From Microbacterium enclense (GTDB lineage Bacteria > Actinomycetota > Actinomycetes > Actinomycetales > Microbacteriaceae): a stretch of 64,000 nucleotides of DNA. The notes under the pieces are model-generated. The model was not told where the DNA came from and ran no database searches. It saw only the letters and a list, made by a program, of their open reading frames with translations. The translations under genes and the position numbers were made by a program. The stretch covers positions 1 through 64,000 of the forward strand of contig NZ_KQ758472.1 of NCBI RefSeq assembly GCF_001456955.1, written 5' to 3'. Below, one piece after another: positions 45,765 through 63,200 of the stretch. Position 1 is the stretch's first letter, and every line of letters begins with the position of its first letter.

Positions 45765-45813
45765 CGGGGCCGCGCCCACGCGCCCGGCGCGTGTGACGGT
45801 GCCCGGCCGCGCC

Positions 45814-45876
45814 GCGTGAGGGGTCGGTTCGTGTCGCCTGGGCCGCTGCGGGGCGACGAAAAGTGACCCCTCGCGC
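45814..45876. repeat. Two-tier palindrome, GTCGC-core family (copy 1)
   Basis: GCGTGAGGGGTC (45814 on) pairs with GACCCCTCGCGC (45865-45876) with one wobble; inside, GTCGCC (45833-45838) pairs with GGCGAC (45852-45857). Length is 63 nt. It lies between the metG promoter and the rsmI stop codon. Other copies are at 59913, 60038 and 63116. Confidence 0.75.
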
Positions 45877-45891
45877 GAACGAGAGACCGGG

Positions 45892-46710
45892 TCAGCGCTT
45901 GACGGCGAGGGCCGCCTGGTACAGCTCGCGCGATGAGTGGCCCGTTTGCGACGCCACCTCGGCGGCCGCCTCCTTCAGTCGGGTGCCGCCGCGCACGAGT
46001 TCGAGCACCTGGGTCACGGCATCCGGGAACGCCACCTCGCGCGCCTGGGCCCCGCCCACGACGATCGCGATCTCGCCCCGCACGCCCTCGGCCGCCCAGG
46101 CGGCGAGCTCGGCGAGCGTGCCGCGCTTGACCTCTTCGTACAGCTTGGTGAGCTCGCGGCAGACCGCCGCGGGACGGTCGGCGCCGAAGGCGGCCGCCAG
46201 ATCGTCGAGGGTGGATGCCAACCGCGACGGCGACTCGAAGAAGACCAGGGTGCGCTCCTCCGACGCCAGCTGCGCGAAGGCCTTGCGGCGCTCGCCGGGC
46301 TTGCGGCGCGGGAACCCCTCGAAGGCGAAGCGATCGGTGGGAAGGCCCGCGACGGCGAGCGCCGTGACAACGGCGCTGGGCCCGGGGAGCGCCGTGACGG
46401 TGACCCCGGCCGCGGCCGCCGCGGCGACCAGGCCGAATCCGGGGTCGCTGACGGTGGGCATGCCGGCGTCGCTGAGTACGAGCAGGTCGTCTTCGCGGGC
46501 CAGGTCGACGAGTTCGGCGGCACGGTCCTTCTCGTTGTGATCGTGCAGGGCGATGAGGCGCGGGCGGTTCTCGACGCCCAGACCGGCGAGCAGACGCTGG
46601 GTCGTGCGGGTGTCTTCGGCAGCGACGACACGGGCGTTCTCGAGCGCTTCGACGAGGCGCTTCGAGGCGTCTCCGAGGTTGCCGATCGGAGTCGCCGCGA
46701 GGATGATCAC
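45892..46710 (-). CDS. rsmI: 16S rRNA (cytidine1402-2'-O)-methyltransferase RsmI
   Basis: The 272-residue SAM-dependent enzyme of the tetrapyrrole-methylase fold modifies C1402 in 16S rRNA. ATPIGNLGDAS, AAEDTRTTQRLL, LVLSDAGMPTVSDPG and LPGPSAVVTAL are characteristic, as is FEGFPRRKPGERR. GTG 46710 is preceded by TAGGGT at 6 nt and no ribosome site. The promoter overlaps that of the divergent pmt gene. Confidence 0.96.
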   Translation of the reverse strand: MIILAATPIGNLGDASKRLVEALENARVVAAEDTRTTQRLLAGLGVENRPRLIALHDHNEKDRAAELVDLAREDDLLVLSDAGMPTVSDPGFGLVAAAAAAGVTVTALPGPSAVVTALAVAGLPTDRFAFEGFPRRKPGERRKAFAQLASEERTLVFFESPSRLASTLDDLAAAFGADRPAAVCRELTKLYEEVKRGTLAELAAWAAEGVRGEIAIVVGGAQAREVAFPDAVTQVLELVRGGTRLKEAAAEVASQTGHSSRELYQAALAVKR

Positions 46711-55259: not shown

Positions 55260-55324
55260 GACCGGCCGCGCTGGCGCCGGCGCTTGCGCGGGACCGGCCG
55301 CGCTGGCGCCGGCGCGCTTGCGCG
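55260..55324. repeat. Direct repeat, 31-33 bp, two copies
   Basis: GACCGGCCGCGCTGGCGCCG begins at 55260 and again at 55292; both continue GCG...CTTGCGCG, the second with two extra bases. The second copy runs into the first 67-nt palindrome. Confidence 0.75.
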
Positions 55325-55389
55325 AGAAACGCCGTTCGTCACGAGACACGGTGTCGCGTGGCGTGTCTCGATCGGAACGGCGTTTCTCG
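55323..55389. repeat. 67-nt two-tier palindrome, CGAGAAACG family (copy 1)
   Basis: CGAGAAACGCCGTTC (55323-55337) pairs perfectly with GAACGGCGTTTCTCG (55375-55389). After symmetric 4-nt internal loops, CGAGACACG (55342-55350) pairs with CGTGTCTCG (55362-55370), leaving an 11-nt loop that contains GTCGC. Confidence 0.85.
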
Positions 55390-55483
55390 GGCTCGAGCGG
55401 AGGGGCTGCGCGGGCGATTGGGGCCGCGCCGCCACGCGCATCCAGGCAGAAGACGCTGAGACGCCGACGCGCTGCTGCTCGCG

Positions 55484-55550
55484 CGAGAAACGCCGTTCGT
55501 CACGAAACACGGTGTGGCGTGGCGTGTCTCGGTCGGAACGGCGTTTCTCG
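55484..55550. repeat. 67-nt two-tier palindrome, CGAGAAACG family (copy 2)
   Basis: This copy has the same 15-bp outer arms (55484-55498 with 55536-55550) and the same total length of 67 nt. Changes fall in the loop and one inner-stem base. It lies in direct orientation 161 bp after copy 1. Confidence 0.85.
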
Positions 55551-55733: not shown

Positions 55734-58700
55734 GTGTCTGTCGAACCCGTCATCGTCTACCCGCCCGAGCTGCCCGTCAGCGCCGCGCGGGACGAGATCG
55801 CGCGCGCCATCCGCGACCACCAGGTCGTGATCGTCGCGGGCGCGACCGGGTCGGGCAAGACCACGCAGCTGCCGAAGATCTGCCTCGAGCTCGGCCGCAC
55901 CTCCATCGCCCACACGCAGCCCCGCCGCATCGCCGCGCGCACGATCGCCGAGCGCATCGCCGACGAGATGCAGGTGCCCCTCGGCTCGACCGTCGGCTAC
56001 AAGGTGCGCTTCACCGACAAGGTCTCGGCCGACACGCGCGTGGCGCTGGTGACCGACGGCATCCTGCTCAACGAGATCCACCGCGACCGGCTCCTGCGCC
56101 GCTACGACACGATCATCGTCGACGAGGCGCACGAGCGCTCGCTCAACATCGACTTCTTGCTCGGCTACCTCCGTCGCATCCTGCTGAAGCGGCCCGACCT
56201 GAAGGTCGTCGTCACCTCGGCGACGATCGACCCCGAGAGCTTCGCGCGGCACTTCGCCGCCGCACCCGCCCAGCCGGGCGGCGAGCCGGTGCCCGCGCCG
56301 GTCATCGAGGTGTCGGGGCGGACGTATCCGGTCGAGATCCGCTATCGGCCGCTCGACGGCGCGGACCAGGCTCCGGAGAACGCCGACGACGAAGGTTCGG
56401 ATGCCGCCACCCCGCCGCCGCAGCCGAAGAAACTCCGGAGCGCGGTACCGGGCAGACGCGACAGCGACGACGTCGACGAGGTCGGGGCCGTCGTGGCGGC
56501 CCTGCGCGAGCTCGACCGGGAGCCCCCGGGCGACGTGCTGGTGTTCTTCCCCGGCGAGGCCGAGATCCGAGACGCCGCGGATGCCATCCGCGGGGCCTAC
56601 CAGAAGGACGCCGCCCCCACCGAGGTGCTTCCCCTCTACGGCCGCCTGTCGGCCGCCGAGCAGCACCGCGTCTTCGAGCGCTCCACCGTCGCCGGCGTGC
56701 GCCGCCGCGTCATCCTCGCAACCAACGTCGCCGAGACGAGCCTCACCGTCCCCGGCATCCGGTACGTCGTCGACACCGGCACCGCCCGCGTCTCGCGCTA
56801 CAGCAACCGCTCGAAGATCCAGCGCCTGCCGATCGAGGCCGTGTCGCAGGCGTCGGCGCAGCAGCGGTCGGGTCGTGCTGGCCGCACCTCGCCCGGCGTG
56901 GCGATCCGGCTCTACTCCGAAGACGACTTCGCGCGTCGCCCCGAGTACACCGAACCCGAGATCCTGCGCACGTCGCTGGCATCCGTGATCCTGCAGATGC
57001 TGTCGCTCGGTTTCGGCGACATCCAGGCGTTCCCGTTCCTCACACCGCCCGACTCGCGCGGTGTGAAGGCGGCGTTCGACCTGCTCGTCGAGCTCGGTGC
57101 GGTGAAGCTGCCGGCGCCGGGGGCACGCGCGCGCGACGACCGGCCCGACCGAGACCCCTCGCGCGGACGCGGCGGACGCAACGACGACAGCGGCCCCCGC
57201 CTCACCGAGATCGGCCGCGAGATCGCCCGGCTGCCGATCGACCCGCGCTTCGCCCGCATGCTCATCGAGGCCCGGCGCAACGACGTGTCGGCCGAAGTGC
57301 TGGCCATCGTGTCGGGCATGTCGATCCAGGACGTGCGCGAACGACCCGAGGAGCGGCGCGAGGAAGCCGATCGGTTCCACGCACGGTTCACCGACCCGAC
57401 CAGCGACTTCCTCTCGCTGCTCAACCTGTGGGAGTACCTGCAGCAGAAGCAGGCCGAACTCGGCTCGAGCGCCTTCCGGCGCCTGTGCCGCAGCGAGCAC
57501 TTGAACTACGTGCGCGTGCGCGAATGGGTCGACGTGCACCGGCAACTGCGGTCGCTCGGCGGCGAGGGTGGTGGGCGCGACGGCGGCGGCGGGCGCAACC
57601 GTGTCCCCCTCCGTGCGGAGTCCGACCCCTCCCGACCGCACCGTTCGGATCACGCCTCAGCGGGCCCCGGACAGAGCACCGGCGCCCCCGAGGGCCACGC
57701 CGCCGGCGATGCCATCCACCGCGCGATCCTGTCGGGGTTGCTGTCGCATCTCGGCATCCTGGATCCCCGCACGATGGCGCAGGCCAAGGACCGCAAGGCC
57801 CCGGGCGACGCCCGCCCGGTCAAGGGCGAGTACATCGGTGCTCGCGGCGCCCGCTTCGCGATCTTCCCCGGCTCGGGGCTGAAGAAGAGGCGCCCGTCGG
57901 CGGTCATGGCGGCCGAGCTCGTCGAAACTTCGCGCCTGTTCGCCCGCACGGTCGCCGCCGTCGATCCGGCGTGGGCCGAAGATCTCGCACCCGACCTGGT
58001 GAAACGCTCGCTGAGCGAGCCGCATTGGTCGAAGGATGCCGGCTCCGCCGCCGCCTACGAGAAGGTCACCCTCTTCGGTGTCGAACTCGTCGGCCGGCGC
58101 CGGGTGCAGCTCGCGCGCTTCGACCGGCCCCTGGCGCGCGAGATGTTCGTGCGGCACGCGCTGGTGGAGGGCGAGTGGGACCCGTCGGTGCTCGACAAGC
58201 GCCTGACCGCGTTCCTCCGTCGCAACGTCGAGCAGCGCCGACTGCTCGAGAAGATCGAGGAGCGCGAGCGCCGCCGCGACATCCTCATCGGCGACGAGGC
58301 GGTGTTCGCGTTCTACAACGCGCGCATCCCCGCCGACGTCACCGACGTGCGCTCGTTCGAGGCGTGGTGGAAGGATGCCATCCACCGCACGCCGAATCTG
58401 CTCGACCTGCGCGAGTCCGACCTCACCGGCGACCGCGCCCAGGGCGATGACCGCGCCTTCCCGGCGCGTTGGCGCCAGGGCGATCAGACCCTCAACCTCG
58501 CGTACCGCTTCGAGCCGGGCGCACCCGACGACGGTGTCACGGTCGTGGTGCCGCTGCCGCTGCTCGCGCAGCTGCGCCCCGATGGGTTCGACTGGCAGGT
58601 GCCCGGCATGCGCGACGAGCTCGTGACGGCGCTGCTGCGGGCGCTGCCGAAGACCATCCGCCGCAACGTCGTACCCGCCGCCGACTGGGCCGAGAAATTC

Positions 58701-59888
58701 TCCGCCGAACTCGCCGAGAAGGGCCCGGAGCACGCGAACGGCCTGCCCAAGACGACGCTCGTCGACGCCCTCGCGGCCCTTGTGCAGCGCGTGGCGAACC
58801 AGCGCGTGAGCGCCGCCGACTTCGAGCTCGAGCGCGTTCCCGCGCATCTCCTCCCCTCGTTCCGGGCGGTGGACGCCCGGGGCCGGGCGGTCGGCAGCGA
58901 TCGCGACCTCGGCGCGCTGCAGCGACGACTGGCCGACCGGGCCCGCTCCAGCGTCGAGTCGACGATCTCTCGGCCCCCGCAGAGAGCCGCGAAGGTCGCG
59001 GAAGCCTCCCCCGCCTTTGCCTCGCGCACGAAGCTGACCACCTGGGACCTCGACGAACTCACCGAGGTCGTCGACACGCCCGTCGCCGGTGGTGTCGTGC
59101 GCGGCTACCCGGCGCTCGTCGACGAGGGCGACAGCGTGGCCCTGCGCGTCGAGGCGACACCCGAGGATGCTGCACGACACACGCGCGCCGGCATCCTGCG
59201 CCTGATGCTGCTCGCCGTGCCGTCGCCCGCCACCTACGTGCTCGACCACCTCACCGCGAACGAGAAGCTCGCGCTCGCGGCATCCCCCTACCAGAACGCG
59301 AAGGCGCTGATCGAGGATGCGCGCGTGGCCCTGGCCGACGACATCCTCGGGCGCGAGAGCCCGACCGGCGTCGTCCGCACGAGAGCCGAATTCGAGCGGG
59401 TGCGCGATGCGTTCTCTGCGGCCTCCGTCGAGCGCACGTTCCAGACGGTGTCGCTCGCGGCGAAGATCCTGCTCGCGCAGCGCGAGGTCGAGCGGGCGAT
59501 GAAAGATGCCGCATCCATCACCCTTCTGGGCGCGCTCAACGACGTGCGGGGGCAGGTGAAGGGCCTGCTGTTCCCGGGCTTCCTCTCGCGCACCGGCCTG
59601 ACGCGCCTGCAGCACTACCCCCGCTACCTCGCCGGGGCGCTGGAGCGGGTGAAGACCCTGTCGGACAATCCCGGGCGCGACCGCCAGCGCATGACCGAGT
59701 ACGAGCGTGCGGCCGCGGGCTTCGTCGAGGCCGGCGGCACGGTGCCGCTTCCGGCGGGTGCCCCCGCGAACCTGGTGCAGACGCGCTGGCTGTTGGAGGA
59801 GCTGCGCGTGAGCCTCTTCGCCCAGCGCCTCGGCACGGCCGAGCCGGTGTCTCCGCAGCGCATCGCGAAGGCCCTGAAGAGCGCCTGA
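55734..59888 (+). CDS. hrpA: ATP-dependent RNA helicase HrpA
   Basis: The 1384-residue DEAH-box helicase has Walker A GATGSGKTT (36-44), TQPRRIAARTIAERIA, DEAH box IIVDEAHERSLNIDFLL, SAT motif VVVTSATIDPESFARHF and motif VI QRSGRAGRTSPGVAIRLYSEDDF. A helicase-associated/OB region follows, then the long C-terminal DUF3418 domain typical of HrpA (about 730-1380). Two low-complexity insertions, one before the second RecA lobe (about 200-250) and one near 600-660, lengthen it. GTG 55734 follows TAAGCT by 8 nt with GAAAGG between. Confidence 0.95.
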   Translation: MSVEPVIVYPPELPVSAARDEIARAIRDHQVVIVAGATGSGKTTQLPKICLELGRTSIAHTQPRRIAARTIAERIADEMQVPLGSTVGYKVRFTDKVSADTRVALVTDGILLNEIHRDRLLRRYDTIIVDEAHERSLNIDFLLGYLRRILLKRPDLKVVVTSATIDPESFARHFAAAPAQPGGEPVPAPVIEVSGRTYPVEIRYRPLDGADQAPENADDEGSDAATPPPQPKKLRSAVPGRRDSDDVDEVGAVVAALRELDREPPGDVLVFFPGEAEIRDAADAIRGAYQKDAAPTEVLPLYGRLSAAEQHRVFERSTVAGVRRRVILATNVAETSLTVPGIRYVVDTGTARVSRYSNRSKIQRLPIEAVSQASAQQRSGRAGRTSPGVAIRLYSEDDFARRPEYTEPEILRTSLASVILQMLSLGFGDIQAFPFLTPPDSRGVKAAFDLLVELGAVKLPAPGARARDDRPDRDPSRGRGGRNDDSGPRLTEIGREIARLPIDPRFARMLIEARRNDVSAEVLAIVSGMSIQDVRERPEERREEADRFHARFTDPTSDFLSLLNLWEYLQQKQAELGSSAFRRLCRSEHLNYVRVREWVDVHRQLRSLGGEGGGRDGGGGRNRVPLRAESDPSRPHRSDHASAGPGQSTGAPEGHAAGDAIHRAILSGLLSHLGILDPRTMAQAKDRKAPGDARPVKGEYIGARGARFAIFPGSGLKKRRPSAVMAAELVETSRLFARTVAAVDPAWAEDLAPDLVKRSLSEPHWSKDAGSAAAYEKVTLFGVELVGRRRVQLARFDRPLAREMFVRHALVEGEWDPSVLDKRLTAFLRRNVEQRRLLEKIEERERRRDILIGDEAVFAFYNARIPADVTDVRSFEAWWKDAIHRTPNLLDLRESDLTGDRAQGDDRAFPARWRQGDQTLNLAYRFEPGAPDDGVTVVVPLPLLAQLRPDGFDWQVPGMRDELVTALLRALPKTIRRNVVPAADWAEKFSAELAEKGPEHANGLPKTTLVDALAALVQRVANQRVSAADFELERVPAHLLPSFRAVDARGRAVGSDRDLGALQRRLADRARSSVESTISRPPQRAAKVAEASPAFASRTKLTTWDLDELTEVVDTPVAGGVVRGYPALVDEGDSVALRVEATPEDAARHTRAGILRLMLLAVPSPATYVLDHLTANEKLALAASPYQNAKALIEDARVALADDILGRESPTGVVRTRAEFERVRDAFSAASVERTFQTVSLAAKILLAQREVERAMKDAASITLLGALNDVRGQVKGLLFPGFLSRTGLTRLQHYPRYLAGALERVKTLSDNPGRDRQRMTEYERAAAGFVEAGGTVPLPAGAPANLVQTRWLLEELRVSLFAQRLGTAEPVSPQRIAKALKSA

Positions 59889-59912
59889 GTCGCGCGGCGC
59901 TGCACGATCCGC

Positions 59913-59978
59913 CGCGTGACTTGCCAGGATTTGTCGCTTGAGGGGTCCGCGAAGCGACAAAACCTGGCGACTCACGCG
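59913..59978. repeat. Two-tier palindrome, GTCGC-core family (copy 2, variant arms)
   Basis: CGCGTGACTTGCCAGG (59913-59928) pairs with CCTGGCGACTCACGCG (59963-59978) at 14 of 16 positions; inside, TTGTCGCTT (59931-59939) pairs perfectly with AAGCGACAA (59952-59960). The loop carries GAGGGGTC, the word that forms the outer arm in the other three copies. Length is 66 nt. Confidence 0.8.
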
Positions 59979-60037
59979 AAGCGCCGTGACTCGGCGGCCG
60001 CTGGTTCCGCCGGCTTCGTCGCCTGGCGCTTCCCGCA

Positions 60038-60102
60038 CGCGTGAGGGGTCAAATACTGTCGCTTCGGACGCGCCTCGGCGACAAAAATTGACCCCTCACG
60101 CG
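60038..60102. repeat. Two-tier palindrome, GTCGC-core family (copy 3)
   Basis: CGCGTGAGGGGTCAA (60038-60052) pairs perfectly with TTGACCCCTCACGCG (60088-60102); inside, TGTCGC (60057-60062) pairs with GCGACA (60078-60083). Length is 65 nt. It lies 60 bp after copy 2 in the gap between convergent genes 59889-60134, where nothing else is visible. Confidence 0.85.
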
Positions 60103-63039: not shown

Positions 63040-63115
63040 GGCATCCACGCTATGACTCCGCCCCGCGCGGCACCGCCCGGTCAGCCCCCGGCGCCGTTCG
63101 GGTTATCCCGAAGAT

Positions 63116-63178
63116 GCGTGAGGGGTCGATCATCGTCGCCCCGCACCATCGGCGGCGACGAAGACTGACCCCTCACGC
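63116..63178. repeat. Two-tier palindrome, GTCGC-core family (copy 4)
   Basis: GCGTGAGGGGTC (63116-63127) pairs perfectly with GACCCCTCACGC (63167-63178); inside, CGTCGCC (63134-63140) pairs with GGCGACG (63154-63160). Length is 63 nt. It lies between the kinase promoter and the permease terminator. Confidence 0.85.
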
Positions 63179-63200
63179 GGGGGGATGTCGGCGGCAGCAC

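Follow-up and report, generated by a model that had tools for sequence, protein, structure and literature searches.

Palindromic copies in the window

The window, the whole stretch of 64,000 nt of Microbacterium enclense DNA that was analyzed, contains four copies of a palindrome, each of which is preceded by a gene 3′ end (Table 1). All four had been reported in an earlier note, with ends right to within 1 nt. The 45813 copy follows the 3′ end of a minus-strand gene (45892-46710; TP_methylase and RsmI_C domains) at a distance of 14 nt, and the 63115 copy, which has minus-strand genes on both sides, is 68 nt past the 3′ end (63248) of a permease gene with a BPD_transp_2 domain. These two copies are flanked by co-directional genes, and the 59913 and 60038 copies lie between convergent genes, the 60038 copy being the second half of a B+A doublet and starting 59 nt beyond the first half. 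The gene at 55734 to 59888 is one that we take to be HrpA-like.

Table 1. Features of the palindromic repeat and the HrpA-like gene end in the window
Feature	Position	Strand	Remarks
Type A copy	45813..45877	.	65 nt, spacer 15
HrpA-like helicase gene	55734..59888	+	domains DEAD, Helicase_C, HA2_C, OB_NTP_bind, DUF3418
TGAGTCGC at stop of HrpA-like gene	59886..59893	+	
Type B copy	59913..59978	.	66 nt, spacer 16, left arm partly decayed
Doublet spacer	59979..60037	.	59 nt
Type A copy	60038..60102	.	65 nt, spacer 15
Type A copy	63115..63179	.	65 nt, spacer 15

The predicted folding energies of all four copies were far below those of shuffled sequences (z of -4.8 to -8.6 over both strands), and none of 200 dinucleotide shuffles matched the real fold of any copy on either strand. 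The doublet spacer is itself foldable (-29.2 kcal/mol, a value without shuffle control). Against a family model built in part from these same four copies, they scored 65 to 80 bits on the plus strand and 58 to 69 bits on the minus strand, and the next-best match in the window scored 18 bits. At the gathering score of Rfam 15, the window gave one tRNA only and ten loci gave two tRNAs only. The internal loop described earlier was replaced by a continuous register of 26 columns against 26, the supposed loop being an AT-rich middle with partial pairing. The 59913 copy had also been singled out for a different arm pair; its arms do differ from type A, but it is not a lone variant and belongs to subtype B, with the left arm decayed to GTGACTTGCCAGG from the B arm. 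The GAGGGGTC in its loop is probably due to chance, as that 8-mer occurred in 1 of 139 loops; GGGGTC or its complement was present in 7 of the 139.

Anatomy and arm types

Each copy of 65 to 66 bp begins with CGCGTGAG, followed by a short type-specific stretch, the AT-rich middle, GTCGC, and a spacer of 15 or 16 nt, after which the same order returns as a mirror image; two inverted half-sites of ~25 bp thus flank the spacer. In the alignment of the 37 copies found in the M. enclense genome (G000; 66 columns), the GTCGC/GCGAC core was intact in all 37 model-found copies. The family has three arm types, A, B, and C, of which this genome holds A and B. Fourteen of its 37 copies are A/A (GTGAGGGGTCA), and 23 have at least one B arm (GTGAGTCGCCA/TGGCGACTCAC). 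Type C (GTGAGGTGCCA) is common in genome G027. Types A and B differ at three paired columns (9/58, 10/57, and 12/55), with both sides changed in 14 copies each.

A set of 139 distinct copies, forming part of the matches to covariance model R1 (see below) in six genomes, was collected with a finder that demanded an exact match to GTCGC and to GCGAC as well as 10 or more matches among 14 outer positions. Decayed copies are therefore missed, and the invariance of the core among the 139 is by construction. Although the finder allowed spacers of 9 to 23 nt, only two lengths occurred, 15 nt in 56 copies and 16 nt in 83. Spacer length tracked arm type, 48 of 54 A/A copies having 15 nt and 43 of 44 B/B copies having 16 nt. 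Six of the 139 were half converted, with B letters in the type columns of one arm and C letters in those of the other. The loops of copies in one genome were mostly unlike each other (69 to 93% identity for the best pairs) and so gave no sign of a recent burst, the tandem copies of G256 excepted.

Distribution in the genome and the genus

The earlier note would have given up its reading had a genome-wide search turned up just these four copies, or had the arms covaried no more than random GC-rich inverted repeats; neither was the case. The exact arm pattern was found at 8 places (16 matches over both strands, with none for the backwards control), and model R1 gave 74 both-strand matches, corresponding to at least 37 places, which is a lower bound because 150 of 11569 first-look candidates were scored. 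R1 was built from 10 copies, nine of type A and one of type B, so its top matches favor type A. Matches at an E value of ≤0.01 were obtained in 20 of 35 genomes of the genus, M. enclense included, and in none of 23 from other genera. In a wider sample, 56 of 247 Microbacterium genomes matched at an E value of ≤1e-4; copy counts in this sample saturate because 21 candidates were scored per genome. A blastn search of a type A copy against phages and plasmids gave no match, nor did two strict patterns in viral contigs. Among the titles listed in literature searches, none describes this repeat in Microbacterium, and the string "Microbacteri" does not appear in the main text of PMC3733652 or PMC12306157.

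Copies also occur in groups. The M. enclense genome has three doublets, and G256 has a tandem array of four copies with a period of ~104 nt (L268, G256:C1 2835422-2835798), in which the loops of copies 2 to 4 are near-identical; this array is a local amplification. On L073 (G000:C13), the 3′ end of one gene is present at both contig ends (1-528 and 17844-18368) in inverted orientation and nearly identical form; an A-B doublet follows it at one end and a B-A doublet at the other. In some draft assemblies a contig breaks off at a copy of the element (G009:C36 3341-3405 in a contig of 3406 nt, G027:C13 9-74, and G027:C11 63-128), perhaps due to the hairpin or the repeat upsetting assembly.

Arm type tracked the genome (mutual information of 0.54 bits, whereas 2000 shuffles never exceeded 0.19) and followed genome more than site. 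Type A predominated in G009 (29 A and 3 B of 32 copies) and G016 (9 A and 4 B of 14, the rest ambiguous), and all 11 copies of G006 were B. Mixtures were found in G024 (12 B, 7 A, and 5 C of 24), in G027 (10 B and 8 C of 21, the rest ambiguous), and in M. enclense itself (20 B and 14 A of 37, the rest ambiguous). No A was present among 17 copies read in G115, and all 27 copies read in G256 were A, these coming from 20 regions chosen as the best matches of the A-weighted R1.

Co-change of the two arms

The paired arm change claimed in the earlier note was confirmed both by covariation among the 37 M. enclense copies and by comparison of orthologous copies. Among the 37 copies, doubly changed cells numbered 101, where shuffles gave 47.7 and slid registers no more than 46; 89.5% of cells were pairing (82.4% in shuffles), and the covariation score was 0.283 (0.165 in shuffles). 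One of the five covariation measures, the number of further pair types in these copies, showed no excess (32 versus 30.0, reached in 85 of 500 shuffles). The middle paired better within than across copies in G009 (0.80 versus 0.57; 0 of 2000 permutations), G027 (0.86 versus 0.72; 0 of 2000), M. enclense (0.52 versus 0.44; 8 of 2000), and G115 (0.65 versus 0.54; 20 of 2000). G024 (72 of 2000) and G256 (116 of 2000) showed a weak effect, and G006 (613 of 2000) and G016 (689 of 2000) showed none. Of six genomes, only G027 and G016 had better pairing of the apex within copies.

Flank comparison yielded 116 reciprocal pairs in 37 site clusters and placed 25 of the 37 M. enclense copies at orthologous sites in the other genomes, which were partly sampled. 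At the outer positions of orthologous copies, right arms differed in 72% of the cells where left arms differed and in 7% otherwise, a figure inflated by the finder, which favors paired outer arms. In the middle, on which the finder does not select, the corresponding values were 62% and 37%. Near flanks of orthologous copies were close to random (0.57, with an unrelated baseline of 0.49), and loops had mostly lost site memory, 16 of the 116 pairs lying above the 99% null (14 with a second null). A loop plainly in common while both arms differ in type was seen at L051/L192/L155/L215/L225 and at L078/L178. Orthologous pairs were of the same type in 45 of 104 cases, against 33.8 expected without site memory (P of 0.008), and 38 of the 44 pairs that changed between A and B also switched the spacer between 15 and 16 nt.

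Copies inside genes and at the HrpA-like gene end

At L061 the element lies in-frame within a DEAD-box/DUF3516 helicase gene. Thirteen loci were tried for this site and eight genomes could be read, of which five are filled, with type B in M. enclense, G024, G027, and G006 and type A in G016, and three are empty (G007, G020, and G009). The type A copy of G016 has a spacer of 16 nt, which preserves the reading frame, and although the encoded linker of the helicase differs in this copy, its DNA arms still match. In M. enclense and G006 an element also forms the C-terminal tail of an ABC exporter. An example of the translated peptide is RESPESVASSGPEATNVGDSR.

The 3′ end of the HrpA-like gene served for a comparison of orthologues, for which named records supplied 48 loci. 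Six of these (L090, L096, L101, L103, L105, and L111) have no recognizable element and end in KALKG*, and those with an intact element end in KALKGA* or KALKSA*, apart from L108, which ends in ALTSA*; the TGA stop at filled loci is mostly supplied by the element arm. The copy at this spot is of type A at L106, L107, and L115 and of type B at L089, L091, L099, L104, L109, L110, and L123, and at L108 and in the window a B copy lies ~20 nt further on. Copies judged by eye to be decayed were found at L092 to L095, L097, L098, L100, L102, L118, L129, and L133. On a tree of 29 rows, 11 of whose 26 inner branches are well supported, type A needs three changes at this site, two of them forced by well-supported branches. 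In the window, TGA-GTCGC is kept after the HrpA-like stop and is followed by the B copy and then the A copy. The TGAGTCGC at the stop is a probable remnant of an older copy and lies where relatives hold an intact element. Because CGCGTGAG is common to both doublet halves, deletion between their starts could swap B for A.

At L100, L118, and L129, the decayed copy after the HrpA-like stop has turned into a new hairpin (CCGGGGATCG/CGATCCCCGG), short and perfect, which may be a scar of template switching. L096 and L103 have in common a stretch around TTGCGGACATGGCCACAA that fills the site where relatives hold the element.

Gene context and the RNA-level reading

Gene calls were made with a simple codon-score caller. 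By these calls, the 139 copies comprised 70 co-directional, 55 convergent, and 5 divergent placements, 6 inside genes, and 3 at contig edges, so that 130 of the 136 placed copies lie between called genes; the background gene pairs were 371 co-directional, 116 convergent, and 99 divergent. Co-directional copies began a median of 14 nt after the upstream stop, which was closer than the next start in 61 of 70. This position, the enrichment of convergent and depletion of divergent pairs, and the strong predicted folds are what would be expected if the copies were 3′ hairpins of the upstream gene acting in RNA as terminators, stabilizers, or processing sites under selection for RNA structure. We nevertheless consider this improbable. 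The lack of a U-run reported earlier was borne out, T accounting for 5 to 24% per position after 183 sense ends, and on the transcribed strand of the 70 co-directional copies there was no preference for G-U (82 G-U against 100 A-C mismatches, P of 0.21), leaving the proposed selection on structure in RNA unsupported. Furthermore, the next start lies within 30 nt in 27 of the 70 co-directional cases, a helicase coding sequence holds a copy in five genomes, and the spacer length is rigid. Intrinsic (Rho-independent) terminators resemble the repeat in being hairpins just downstream of stop codons, but the repeat differs from them by the missing T-run, the rigid spacer, the type-specific conserved sequence, and the intragenic copy. 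The earlier conclusion that the copies are not simply terminators is thus probably right, but its argument from convergent and co-directional contexts fails because both contexts follow gene ends; the missing U-run and the copy inside a coding sequence are better arguments.

Relation to known repeats

The literature behind the interpretation included PMC3116915, PMC8049555, PMC3733652, and PMC12306157. REPINs, as described in PMC3116915, are inverted doublets of REPs in Pseudomonas fluorescens. Like them, the Microbacterium repeat has two conserved inverted ends and a less conserved spacer, can form a hairpin, is mainly extragenic, and occurs in many copies per genome that persist as a population. 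As with REPs in general, its many dispersed palindromic copies lie mainly outside genes. Signs of excision or duplication as a unit comprised filled and empty sites and tandem arrays, with no clean recent event. The repeat differs from REPINs in that its ends lack GTAG, its spacer is rigid at 15 or 16 nt, no Y1/RAYT transposase was detected in 33 genomes, and its copies occupy shared sites in several species even though both arms have changed. The GTAG- or CGTC-tagged REPs of PMC3733652 are 20 to 40 bp with the tag at one end; they too are palindromic, dispersed, and found also inside genes, but the Microbacterium repeat is 65 to 66 bp, symmetric, and without a conserved tag. Within 8 nt of 278 ends, CGTC occurred 19 times, GACG 12, GTAG 2, and CTAC 3, and neither tag was conserved.

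An IS200/REP-type transposase had been suggested, but none of the 33 genomes searched, that of M. enclense among them, had a match to PF01797 (Y1/RAYT) (G000 to G019 and G035 to G047, including the element-rich G000, G006, G009, and G016), in a search whose control matched in 5 of 14 cases and which left the element-rich G020, G024, and G027 outside. The family resembles REPs, yet the REP transposase was not found in the 33 genomes searched.

Rickettsia palindromic elements (RPE) are inserted in-frame within genes. The likeness to them lies in this insertion, a palindrome in a coding sequence being translated as a tolerated peptide; unlike RPE, the Microbacterium repeat is mainly intergenic.

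Interpretation

Taken together, we suggest, with a probability of roughly one half, that the copies belong to an old palindromic repeat family of Microbacterium, persistent and non-autonomous, which is REP/REPIN- or RPE-like and kept symmetric at the DNA level. The patchy spread, position bias, doublets, tandem array, and in-frame insertion fit such a family, and the copies look like a partly selfish repeat rather than ordinary gene-end signals. The family would have spread long ago by insertion, and a putative trans-acting DNA factor recognizing both half-sites would most likely keep the arms matched, perhaps helped in keeping symmetry by template switching from arm to arm; the same DNA-level process could pull the copies of one genome toward one type. 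Recognition of DNA half-sites is suggested by the rigid spacers and by arm types that run genome-wide, and the copy-by-copy matching of arms may be due to template switching, to selection for a DNA hairpin, or to both. Since paired change could also be produced by duplex half-site recognition or template-switch homogenization, it does not on its own demonstrate structural selection. Strong covariation in a bacterial hairpin, moreover, need not mean a structured RNA. Counting against such a family, no target-site duplication was seen, the 33 genomes searched gave no Y1/RAYT transposase, the mostly dissimilar loops give no hint of a recent burst, and the GTAG and CGTC tags of known REPs are not conserved.

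That several species keep copies in shared positions although the flanks are near-random could instead reflect a host function, with a putative dimeric protein, for nucleoid organization, insulation, or the like, binding inverted half-sites at a fixed spacing in duplex DNA. Both half-sites would then follow the preference of the binder, giving matching arms and genome "dialects" without a hairpin. That would suit the two spacer lengths seen in 139 of 139 copies and tied to type, the core intact in 37 of 37 model-found copies, the agreement of type with genome, the lack of strand asymmetry, and the 25 of 37 copies kept at orthologous sites. We are doubtful of it, as a fixed half-site leaves the within-copy pairing of the middle in G009 and G027 unexplained, decay or absence at the HrpA-like site and insertion into a helicase gene are odd for an important site, and inspection of G024 by eye gave no positional pattern with respect to dnaA. 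A somewhat better case can be made for passive symmetry, in which replication template switching from arm to arm, along with gene conversion and deletion between doublets, would make the arms alike and exchange their type, with no selection involved. It would account for middle pairing reaching its maximum in G009 and G027, which also have the most perfect copies, for the half-converted B/C copies (6 of 139), and for the duplicated C13 gene end carrying A-B and B-A; the putative replacement of B by A through deletion in a doublet would be of this kind, and template switching is documented in other systems (PMC8794818 and PMC8604942). Loop inversion, which PMC8604942 names as an outcome of template switching, was not clearly in excess: of 116 pairs, 8 exceeded the 95% null (~6 expected) and 1 exceeded the 99% null. 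Passive symmetry, although tentatively plausible, creates neither the conserved core nor the spacer nor a genome-wide type; it concerns the matching of the arms and can be compatible with the repeat family that we favor.

A bolder extension of the repeat-family reading, which we regard as rather unlikely, is that a few tens of palindromic sites per genome co-evolve with a putative sequence-specific DNA factor, genomes shifting dialect (A with 15 nt; B or C with 16 nt) and sites rewriting both arms and the spacer in place. If true, such co-evolving sites would amount to a RAYT-independent replicator or a chromosome-wide recognition system in Actinobacteria. Orthologous copies changed on both arms make selection, a recognition factor, and template switching testable as keepers of symmetry.

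Other palindromes

Hairpins of the form TGTCCCACTTT...AAAGTGGGACA were observed at L119:4217-4289, with forward matches in G008 (8), G009 (3), G027 (2), G011 (1), and G016 (1). At L119 they resembled a further arm type, but most matches have another core and they are therefore treated as a separate short palindrome family of the genus. Another palindrome, GAGAAACGCCGTTC.../...GAACGGCGTTTCTCG, occurs twice in the window (55306-55406 and 55484-55550), and a similar one is present in Microbacterium enclense at L107:44-100.
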